A stretch of DNA of 64,000 nt from Candidatus Kuenenia hertensis (GTDB taxonomy: Bacteria > Planctomycetota > Brocadiia > Brocadiales > Brocadiaceae), in contig SOET01000020.1 in assembly GCA_021646465.1 (NCBI GenBank), forward strand, positions 1-64,000. The letters are read 5' to 3'. The notes beneath the pieces are model-generated. The model searched no databases, was not told where the DNA came from, and saw nothing but the letters and a program-made list of their open reading frames with translations. Position numbers and translations under genes: made by a program. Each line of letters starts with the position of its first letter. Positions within the stretch are counted from its first letter, which is position 1. Shown here one piece after another: positions 41,447-58,721 of the stretch.

Positions 41447-41540
41447 ATTTTCAATTTTTTAGATAAAAAAAGTAACTCCCCCTATTCAGTGTAAATATTA
41501 CACGGCTCGTTCCCAAACTCCAGTTTGGGAATGCATTTGT

Positions 41541-41570
41541 TGTAGAGACGCATTGCTATGCGTCTCTACA
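41541..41570. repeat. 30-bp palindrome, copy 2
   Basis: Same TGTAGAGACGCATTG palindrome as at 9461-9490, with one central mismatch. It replaces a short segment present in MITE copy B, so it appears to have been inserted into the element. Confidence 0.75.
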
Positions 41571-41700
41571 AGTCTCGCCTGTTTGTTGACAGATAGGGAA
41601 TAAAATCACTGAATTCAGACAGTTTGTAATTTTAATAATTTGTTAAATCAAACCCACACTGGAAACAAAGTTTCCACTACAGTTGCGTTCCCAAACTGGA

Positions 41701-41850
41701 CAGGCTGGGTCAAATGAACCTTCTTGCCTTAAAAGTAGGGAACAACCTTTAAAAATTGCCCGTTTTGTCCCAAATTTATCGCCTGATTCCCATTAAAGTG
41801 GGGTATAAAAACAGCAAAATAGGGTAAAACTGCTCATTTGACCCAGTCTG
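41701..41850. mobile_element. 150-bp element nested in MITE copy A
   Basis: Its ends CAGGCTGGGTCAAATGA (41701) and TCATTTGACCCAGTCTG (to 41850) are inverted repeats. It interrupts the GTTCCCAAACTGG|AGTTTGGGAACG palindrome that is whole in copy B. One end also occurs at 124-140. It encodes nothing. Confidence 0.7.
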
Positions 41851-41917
41851 GGAGTTTGGGAACGAGTTGCGCTCTGCGCTCCGGTAGATTAATAAATTAC
41901 GCTGAATAGATAATAAG

Positions 41918-41960
41918 AAAAAAAGGAGTAATATTCTTTTTGAATATTACTCCCTTTTTT
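41918..41960. terminator. bidirectional hairpin terminator
   Basis: GGAGTAATATTC and GAATATTACTCC form a 12-bp stem around TTTTT, with a run of A residues before and seven T residues after. It could end transcription from both directions. Confidence 0.8.
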
Positions 41961-55669: not shown

Positions 55670-56171
55670 GATTAATCCCTCTCATTGATATTTTACCTTG
55701 TTATTTTTTCGAATGTTATGAAGTATATAATTATTACAAGAAATTGTAACACTGTGGCGTTGTCTGTCAGATCTCACACAGAAATATTGCAATTGTGCGA
55801 TTTAATCTTTTATCTTGGATAAAATCAAGGCTTAAAAAGGTAATCATGATTCTAAATACTGTTTTTGAGTAACTATTCAGCGTAATTTACCAAACTACTG
55901 GGAGGTGCAGCGCGTAACTCGTTCCCAAACTCCGGTTTGGGAACGCAACTGCAATGGAAACTCTGTTTCCCGTGAGGGTTTGATTTAACAAATTATTAAA
56001 ATTACAAACCATCTGAATCCAGTGATTTTATTCCCTATCTGTCAACAGACAGGCGAGAAACCAGAGTTTCCCGAACAAATGCATTCCCAAACTGGAGTTT
56101 GGGAACGAGCCGTGTAATATTTACGCTGAACAGATACGTTTTTGATCACTTTAGATTACCTTGCGTTATAT
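55670..56171. other. non-coding region with MITE copy B
   Basis: Contains promoter-side spacer for the DUF262 gene and the MITE at 55869-56137. No gene is seen. Confidence 0.5.
55869..56137 (-). mobile_element. IS66-type MITE, copy B (269 bp)
   Basis: Left end GTAACTATTCAGCGTAATTT and right end reverse complement GTATCTGTTCAGCGTAAATA are terminal inverted repeats starting GTA(A/T). The 8-bp sequence GTTTTTGA lies directly before (55861-55868) and after (56138-56145), a perfect target duplication. Inside are two CCCAAACT..AGTTTGGG palindromes. It lies in the opposite orientation to copies A and C and encodes nothing. Confidence 0.88.
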
Positions 56172-56212
56172 TTTTATTGCTCTGACCAATCCTTTAATTC
56201 TTTTAATAAACG
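56172..56212 (+). repeat. 41-bp direct repeat, right copy (in pgm 3' end)
   Basis: Exact match of 52944-52984. It includes the stop codon and final codons (KELKDWSEQ) of the phosphohexomutase. Confidence 0.85.
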
Positions 56213-58366
56213 CACAGACGGCAGTTTTTCTTCCCATTGGGAGCAAAGATACGTTATTGCTTTTTTCAGCGCGGGGAGGGGGTCGGCGCCGGGCGTCATG
56301 CCGGATGTTTCTTTGCAGAGCCATGAAAGCAGATCATTTATATTCTTATAGGTGTTCTTTGCAAGAACATGGTGCAATTGATCAATCGTTGTTTTCTCAA
56401 AGGCCATCTTGCAACCAATATCGATAATATCCGGCAGCAGTAACCCCGGTTCTCCTAACTGCAAATCAATCCGCTCAAGTAACTCATTATAAACGACACG
56501 TGCAGTTTTTTCCGCCTCTTTCCTTGCGGCATTCAATAATTCCATTCCGCGCATGGATGCAAGTTTTTCGTCGGGAAGCAGGTGACAATAAAATTTCATT
56601 TTTGGTTCGGTTCCTGACGGACGGATCGAAATAACAAACGCATCGGTAAATATCTGAAGAACGTTTCTTGGTAATCTGTCGGTATTGCTCACAAACGGGC
56701 CGAACACCGTTTCATCCCAATAATCGACTATTTTTTTTACCGGAAAACCGGCAATCGCTTTCGGAGGCAATGTTCTTAACGACTCCATGATTTTATCCTT
56801 TTTTGCTATGCCTTCAGCGCCAATCATCATGATAGACCGGTTAACGCAATCGTATACTCCCAGTTCTTCCAGTATCTGTATATAATAATCAAGGAGTGTT
56901 TTTCCTTCCTTGCGTAATTTCTGGTAGAGCACTGCCAGATACATGCAGGCAGGTGTTGCATCTTTGTCCAATATGGAAGGTACGAGTAATACTCCGTGAC
57001 TCTCCTCCGATGCCATGACCAATTGCTGGGGAGAACAGGAAATATTCCGGTAGCGTCCTTCTTTTTTCAATATCTTCAGTACATTGGCCATATATTTAAA
57101 CCCGACCAGCAGATCATCCACTAAAAATGAGTTGCCTGCTTTTTCAACAATCCTTCCAAGAATCCTTGTTGTAACCAATGTTTCGATTACCAAGCCTTTT
57201 CTTTTCGGACCGGAAGGATCAAGCATGAGAAAATAACAGAGGACCGTTGCAATCTGGTTGCCGTCGAAGTGATACCAGCTTCCGTCATGTAATTTTATCT
57301 CCACGCCAATTCGATCCGCATCTGGGTCGCTGGAAAGGACAATCCCTGATCCGTTCTCATCGGCAAAAACCCTTGCCGGTTCAGTAGACTGCGGCACCTC
57401 AGGATTCGGTGCCTTGAAGGGTATAGCGGAAAAACTACCGTCGGGGTGCTGATCGGGAGGAACAATGAAGGGAATTTTCAATCGCTCCAACACCTCTCCT
57501 GCCGTGGTAAGTCCGCATCCGCACAGAGGGGTAAAAACAACCGGTATGTTCTGGTCGGGGACATAAATATTATCAAACAATGCAACATACGTGCTGATGT
57601 ATTTCTCATGAAGCGCATCAGGAATATTTCGGATCATATTTTGTTCGAGCGCCTTTTCAAAAGGGAGAGACTGAATATTTGTTGCCTGATCCATAGCGTC
57701 TGCAAGTATTTGATCGTCAGGTGCAACCGGCTGGCTTCCATACTGGTCGTATACCTTTATTCCGTTATCATCAGGAGGGTTGTGAGAAGCGGAAATGTTT
57801 ACTCCTCCCGCTGCATCAAATTCGCCAATTAGAAAAGAAAGTTCCGGAGTACCTAACACGGCAAGCTCCGCTTCGGGCTTGGGGAAATAGACAATGATGC
57901 CGTTTCCTGCGTAAATTTCACACGCCAACCTGCCAAGTGCCCGTGCAGAAAGACCCAGTAGCGGATGTTGTCCTTCCAGAAACCGGTATGTTCCGGCAAT
58001 ATCATGAAAGACCCGTACGTCATTGGCGACTATAACAACGAGTTCTTTTCGTCCGGTAAAATAATTACGCAGATAATTGCAGTGCCCCTGCACCGTCATG
58101 GCAACTGTTGCCAAATTAATCCGGTTGGGTCCGTACCCGACCTTTCCTCTCCTTCCGCCTGTCCCAAACGGCACTATCTGCCAGAAGGCGTCAAAAAGTA
58201 AACCAATATGGCATTCATCAAGGTGTTTCCTGATTATTTCCGGATAAGAATAGGGAATTATACCGGAAAGCCATACATTCAGATTCTCAACGGCCTTTTC
58301 TCCAGATCGTCCGTATTTTTCTATCAATAGATTACTCATATTTCTCAGTTTTTCAGTATTTACCAT
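56174..58366 (-). CDS. phosphoglucomutase/phosphomannomutase family enzyme
   Basis: A 730-residue alpha-D-phosphohexomutase. FGTGGRRGKVGYGPNRIN near the start, the phosphoserine loop GGVNISASHNPPDDNGIKVY, the metal loop LSSDPDADRIGVEIK and the sugar-binding EESHGVLLV, with phosphate-binding RPSGTEPKMKFY near the end, are all present. The C-terminus extends about 130 residues beyond the usual fold. The ATG at 58366 has GGAGG upstream; the longer frame would run into a MITE. The last codons form one copy of a 41-bp repeat. Confidence 0.9.
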   Translation of the reverse strand: MVNTEKLRNMSNLLIEKYGRSGEKAVENLNVWLSGIIPYSYPEIIRKHLDECHIGLLFDAFWQIVPFGTGGRRGKVGYGPNRINLATVAMTVQGHCNYLRNYFTGRKELVVIVANDVRVFHDIAGTYRFLEGQHPLLGLSARALGRLACEIYAGNGIIVYFPKPEAELAVLGTPELSFLIGEFDAAGGVNISASHNPPDDNGIKVYDQYGSQPVAPDDQILADAMDQATNIQSLPFEKALEQNMIRNIPDALHEKYISTYVALFDNIYVPDQNIPVVFTPLCGCGLTTAGEVLERLKIPFIVPPDQHPDGSFSAIPFKAPNPEVPQSTEPARVFADENGSGIVLSSDPDADRIGVEIKLHDGSWYHFDGNQIATVLCYFLMLDPSGPKRKGLVIETLVTTRILGRIVEKAGNSFLVDDLLVGFKYMANVLKILKKEGRYRNISCSPQQLVMASEESHGVLLVPSILDKDATPACMYLAVLYQKLRKEGKTLLDYYIQILEELGVYDCVNRSIMMIGAEGIAKKDKIMESLRTLPPKAIAGFPVKKIVDYWDETVFGPFVSNTDRLPRNVLQIFTDAFVISIRPSGTEPKMKFYCHLLPDEKLASMRGMELLNAARKEAEKTARVVYNELLERIDLQLGEPGLLLPDIIDIGCKMAFEKTTIDQLHHVLAKNTYKNINDLLSWLCKETSGMTPGADPLPALKKAITYLCSQWEEKLPSVRLLKELKDWSEQ

Positions 58367-58402
58367 AGCGTGCCTCCATGAAAATGTATACATAGTATTT
58401 TT

Positions 58403-58508
58403 GTAACTATTCAGCATAAATATTACACGGCTCGTTCCCAAACCAGAGTTTGGAAACGAGTTACGCTCAGCACCCCAGTAGTTTGGTAATTTACGCTGAA
58501 TAGTTACG
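58403..58508 (+). mobile_element. IS66-type MITE, copy C (106 bp)
   Basis: Ends GTAACTATTCAGCATAAATA and (reverse complement) GTAACTATTCAGCGTAAATT are inverted repeats. GTATTTTT flanks both sides (58395-58402 and 58509-58516), an 8-bp target duplication. Only a single CCAAACCAGAGTTTGG-type palindrome remains inside. It lies 37 bp upstream of the phosphohexomutase start. Confidence 0.88.
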
Positions 58509-58721
58509 TATTTTTTTGATCGCAACAAAAATTGTGGTAAAATGACACTGAACGAGTTATGATTTTAACGAATCGGCGTTTTTCATCAAGGACAATTCTC
58601 TTTTAAGAGGACGGTGTTTCCCGATGTTTTTTTCAGTTTTTCGCTCATTATACATTGCAGAGAAATAAACAGGATAATTAAAATTGCCGAAGTCCTTTTT
58701 CAGGATATATTAAAATACACC

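Follow-up and report, generated by a model that had tools for sequence, protein, structure and literature searches.

The window analysed here, a 64-kb stretch of DNA from a member of the Brocadiaceae, carries a gene that by eye resembles a phosphohexomutase gene, bracketed by two short repeats, B and C, together with a longer copy, A, at lower coordinates (Table 1). The likely start of the gene is the ATG at 58366, which is preceded by GGAGG; copy C lies 36 bp upstream of the gene and copy B just past its stop codon. It should be noted that the stretch containing copy C (58366-58528) is stop-free in the frame of this downstream gene, so that ORF callers may lengthen the protein from 730 to 784 amino acids by reading through the repeat.

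Table 1. Coordinates of the repeats, their flanking duplications and associated features. Positions without a prefix refer to the window.
Feature	Position	Strand	Remarks
Nested IS1182-type MITE	41701..41850	.	150 bp; ends CAGGCTGGGTCAAATGA / TCATTTGACCCAGTCTG; apex of A's palindrome
MITE copy A	41472..41913	.	442 bp including the nested 150-bp element
Left flank of A	41464..41471	.	TAAAAAAA; one mismatch to right repeat
Right flank of A	41914..41921	.	TAAGAAAA
MITE copy B	55869..56137	.	269 bp; non-coding; long imperfect hairpin
Target duplication, left of B	55861..55868	.	GTTTTTGA; 8 bp
Target duplication, right of B	56138..56145	.	GTTTTTGA; 8 bp
Internal palindrome of B	55920..55945	.	CGTTCCCAAACTCCGGTTTGGGAACG; unoccupied
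Phosphohexomutase-like gene	56174..58366	-	identified by eye; between B and C
MITE copy C	58403..58507	.	105 bp; single hairpin
Target duplication, left of C	58395..58402	.	GTATTTTT; 8 bp
Target duplication, right of C	58508..58515	.	GTATTTTT; 8 bp
IS1182-type MITE copy	C77:43965-44115		tip of GTTCCCAAAC-type palindrome
IS1182-type MITE copy	C77:44295-44457		tip of GTTCCCAAAC-type palindrome
IS1182-type MITE copy	C31:62986-63136		tip of GTTCCCAAAC-type palindrome
IS1182-type MITE copy	C5:7743-7892		tip of GTTCCCAAAC-type palindrome
IS1182-type MITE copy	C79:187636-187793		tip of GTTCCCAAAC-type palindrome

An earlier, sequence-only reading of the window had described B and C as elements with matching inverted ends and intact 8-bp target duplications. 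Both descriptions hold: the ends, which in copy B are GTAACTATTCAGCG and CGCTGAACAGATAC, differ from GTAACTATTCAGCGTAAAT at zero to two positions in the two copies, and the flanking duplications of B and C are perfect. The coordinates proposed for B were exact, but those for C ran one base too far. Within the window the 19-nt end motif is found at five sites with three or fewer mismatches, compared with 0.02 in shuffled sequences. B and C share terminal segments of about 34 and 54 bp, and C corresponds to the outer segments of B joined together with the middle absent. The fold z-scores of the two copies relative to shuffles are -10.8 (B) and -8.0 (C), and full-length relatives of B elsewhere in the genome are 91-94% identical to it. 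Copy A had been assigned to the same family, but it had escaped attention that a further element is nested within it. Its left end is split by extra bases (GTAACTCCCCCTATTCAG), its right end reads GATAA, and its flanks form an 8-bp repeat with one mismatch. Copy A is an older relative of B and C.

We surveyed the complete assembly of this anammox bacterium (4.17 Mb in 89 contigs) for further copies. A 17-nt end, allowing two or fewer mismatches, matched 105 times, compared with twice for a reversed-pattern control. In a census in which stretches were fetched around end-motif matches and their ends then paired, 44 paired elements were flanked by 8-bp direct repeats differing at no more than one position (identical in 33 cases), against 1.1 when the right flanks were shuffled. 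Because pairing that relies on the duplication would be circular, ends were paired a second time by nearness alone, with no duplication criterion. Among the 57 pairs obtained in this way, 31 had an exact repeat of 8 bp and none a repeat of 5-7 or 9-12 bp, while 3- and 4-bp repeats were each seen once. Random flanks across the genome, the outcome named beforehand as counting against an IS66 origin, are thus not what is found, and the length of the duplication is exactly 8 bp. A good duplication was absent from 15 of the 57 nearest pairs, some of which are wrong pairings or decayed copies.

The duplications of the family are 80% A+T and the elements are mostly intergenic; when the flanks of the 44 elements were joined, the few ORFs that spanned the junctions were weak, and the idea that the elements interrupt genes was set aside. 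Most of the 44 elements measure 100-285 bp, they contain no transposase gene, and the family amounts to about 50 or more copies. By interior sequence they fall into the class of B and C (n=16), a class of mostly 100-180 bp (n=23), a class of three and singletons. Recent movement is indicated by three copies of 269 bp that occupy separate sites, are flanked by different perfect duplications and show 98.9-99.6% identity to one another.

Two further elements were also encountered. One, of 833 bp (L062 1651-2483; C42:54350-55182), has ends of the IS66 type, is flanked by the perfect 8-bp duplication AAAATCAT and carries a fragment of a DUF559 (endonuclease-like) gene as a passenger between the MITE ends. 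The other, of 601 bp (L075 1059-1659; C39:31258-31858), likewise has IS66-type ends and a perfect duplication, AAACCTTT, and its interior is unrelated, with no clear gene.

The genome contains a single IS66 (PF03050) locus, which lies within a 1,721-bp element (C78:12559-14279) that begins GTCTCTATTCAGCGAAAATA, ends TACGCTGAATAGATTC and is bordered on both sides by the perfect 8-bp duplication GTTTATCA; its ends are of the MITE type. The sequence-only reading had called for a full IS66 element sharing the ends of the MITEs and encoding tnpA, tnpB and tnpC. Such a same-ended element exists, but it is of a tnpC-only type, with no sign of tnpA and tnpB as separate genes, and its transposase gene is fragmented, with ORFs of 84, 190 and 172 amino acids. 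A congener assembled as a single 4.41-Mb contig (G020) has elements of 1,717, 1,720 and 1,724 bp, with MITE-type ends and perfect 8-bp duplications, to which the copy described here is 87-89% identical. One of them has a 473-aa ORF scored as IS66 by both Pfam (PF03050) and NCBIfam (NF033517), and these congener copies of the tnpC-only IS66 are intact. Elements of like build, 1,712 bp long, are present in G024, a less closely related genome of the Brocadiaceae. Over 17-20 bp, the MITE ends are about 89-95% identical to those of the IS66 elements in all three genomes, and comparison of the MITEs with these elements revealed no similarity past the terminal ~17-20 bp. The likeness being confined to these outer bases, descent from the present IS66 is not required, and we rejected the idea that the MITEs are internal-deletion derivatives of the known IS66, there being no subterminal match beyond ~20 bp.

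Sites free of the MITE were sought in relatives, as the sequence-only reading had advised, and were found at both of the other family loci that were tested, whereas B and C themselves had no orthologous locus in congeners (a DNA search gave no collinear match). The flanks of the element at C1:927 align to G020:1320530-1322185, where the MITE is absent; the joined flanks with one copy of the duplication scored 121 and the filled allele 99, compared with a best value of 110 with shuffled left flanks and 91 for the right flank alone. The flanks of the element at C60:13261 similarly align to G019:C18 28458-28920, which also has no MITE. Because of sequence divergence in the sister-species flanks, neither junction is base-exact. 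The congeners contain no close orthologue of the gene between B and C, only matches at 27-29% identity. A stretch within the flank of the element at C60:13261 (L005 445-614) has more than 15 matches in G020 at 79-80% identity and represents another repeat family.

Taken together, B, C and A are very probably members of a MITE family that is spread through the genome and is mobilised in trans by a tnpC-only transposase of the IS66 family. This reading, which had been put forward for the window, is supported by the matched ends, the 8-bp duplications found genome-wide, the same-ended IS66, its intact copies in a congener, the orthologous sites that are free of the MITE and the copies that are 99% identical. 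Neither of the outcomes named beforehand as refuting it was observed. According to the model, the IS66 transposase would recognise the ~17-20 terminal bases (GTAACTATTCAGCG...) and cut the element at its GTAA/TTAC ends; the element would then be joined to cuts staggered by 8 bp in AT-rich, mostly intergenic DNA, repair of which would leave the 8-bp duplication. From the sequences we infer that TnpC acts on the MITEs in trans. The recent activity that had been claimed for the family is borne out by the near-identical 269-bp copies, but as the only IS66 transposase of this genome is broken, its ability to move now in this strain is doubtful.

The same features can be accommodated in other ways, each of which we consider improbable. 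The strong folding of B and C, their intergenic position and the presence of a GTTCCCAAAC palindrome would all be expected of REP-like extragenic palindromes, acting as RNA hairpins, terminators or protein sites and spread by RAYT-type or other non-IS66 means, with the duplications arising by chance. REPs, however, are not characterised by IS66 ends or by exact 8-bp duplications in most copies; every one of the 20 exact-type palindromes coincides with a locus matched by the MITE, and a comparison of the MITE with Rfam found no match to a known RNA family, making this origin exceedingly unlikely. Duplications of 8 bp are by themselves not specific to IS66, being produced also by families such as ISAs1, IS256 and IS1595, and MITEs of one such family might resemble IS66 at their ends by chance. 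Against this, it is an IS66 transposase that the full-length element bearing these ends encodes, both here and in two relatives, and there is scarcely any likelihood that another family is responsible.

That C precedes a gene by 36 bp and B follows just after its stop codon, along with a terminator-like stem predicted in B, could instead indicate a domesticated regulatory or terminator element that is maintained by selection and for which transposition was only the origin. Promoter- and terminator-like sites are nevertheless about as frequent in these elements as in shuffles, and the position of the MITE differs between species, with no positional conservation seen. Domestication is accordingly very unlikely, and we retain mobilisation by IS66 as the explanation for the family.

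Copy A owes its length to a 150-bp element lodged at the apex of its palindrome. In this genome, every full-length copy of the element is found within a TTCCCAAAC-type palindrome, which is degenerate in one case, and most of those in GTTCCCAAAC-type palindromes are flanked by duplications of 3-4 bp. Both palindromes of a 593-bp MITE at C77:43921 harbour a nested element, the duplicated bases being TCCA and TGGA. The ends of the nested element, CAGACTGGGTCAAATGA, are present in 26 of 33 Brocadiaceae genomes. Elements with these ends that encode an IS1182-family transposase measure 1,553 bp, with the transposase split into two ORFs, and 1,707 bp; the latter (L352) has a 476-aa ORF that matches the NCBIfam IS1182 model NF033551 (E 1.1e-106). 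We examined 31 distinct IS1182-type insertions from several genera. A 3- or 4-bp duplication was found in 21 of these, and in 20 the flanking arms pair at seven or more of ten positions (shuffled mean 5.0, maximum 12). Unrelated palindromes, CACGGACAAGC/GCTTGTCCGTG and GTTGGGTTTCGC/GCGAAACCCAAC, are also occupied across the Brocadiaceae. We lean slightly towards a two-layer nest in anammox bacteria, in which the IS66-type MITEs spread palindromes and the IS1182-type MITE lands in the tips of these and of unrelated palindromes, duplicating 3-4 bases of the loop. On this view the target would be a DNA shape, either an extruded cruciform or a single-strand hairpin, rather than a sequence.

The MITE family with its identified IS66 partner is of a known sort, ordinary in kind and well evidenced; of more interest is a by-product of the analysis, the nested element at hairpin tips. 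The open papers that we searched contained no earlier report of IS66 MITEs in anammox bacteria, a group of great environmental weight in which an abundant IS66-driven MITE family is now documented. Its insertions make up a natural collection for which the ends, the duplications and the partner transposase are all known, and the nested IS1182-type element offers tractable sites at which to study the recognition of hairpin tips by a DDE transposase.

Among known systems, the partner element resembles the tnpC-only IS66 family members of the ISBst12 group in its GTAA-type ends, 8-bp duplications and DDE_Tnp_IS66 transposase, and it differs from classical IS66 in having no tnpA or tnpB; duplications of 8 bp are listed for ISPpa5a and ISPpa7 (PMC3281130). 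The MITEs, unlike the IS66 family, are gene-less and have only the terminal 17-20 bp in common with it. MITEs of Thiomargarita (PMC4853749) were considered as a counterpart and set aside, as their reported 10-bp repeats differ. MITECca01 of Cardinium, which derives from an IS982 element, is likewise short, non-coding, partly palindromic and present in many copies that retain only the ends of the parent (PMC9769881), although it belongs to another IS family and the elements described here have two main size and interior classes with one set of ends. A 4-bp duplication is listed for ISPse1 of the IS1182 family (PMC3281130), and IS1272 of the same family is reported to target hairpin-forming inverted repeats with a blunt deletion of part of the stem-loop and no target duplication (PMC4923244). 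The nested element is like IS1272 in that a same-ended element encodes an IS1182 transposase (by NCBIfam) and in its insertion into hairpin-forming repeats, but it leaves the palindrome intact and duplicates 3-4 bp at the tip.
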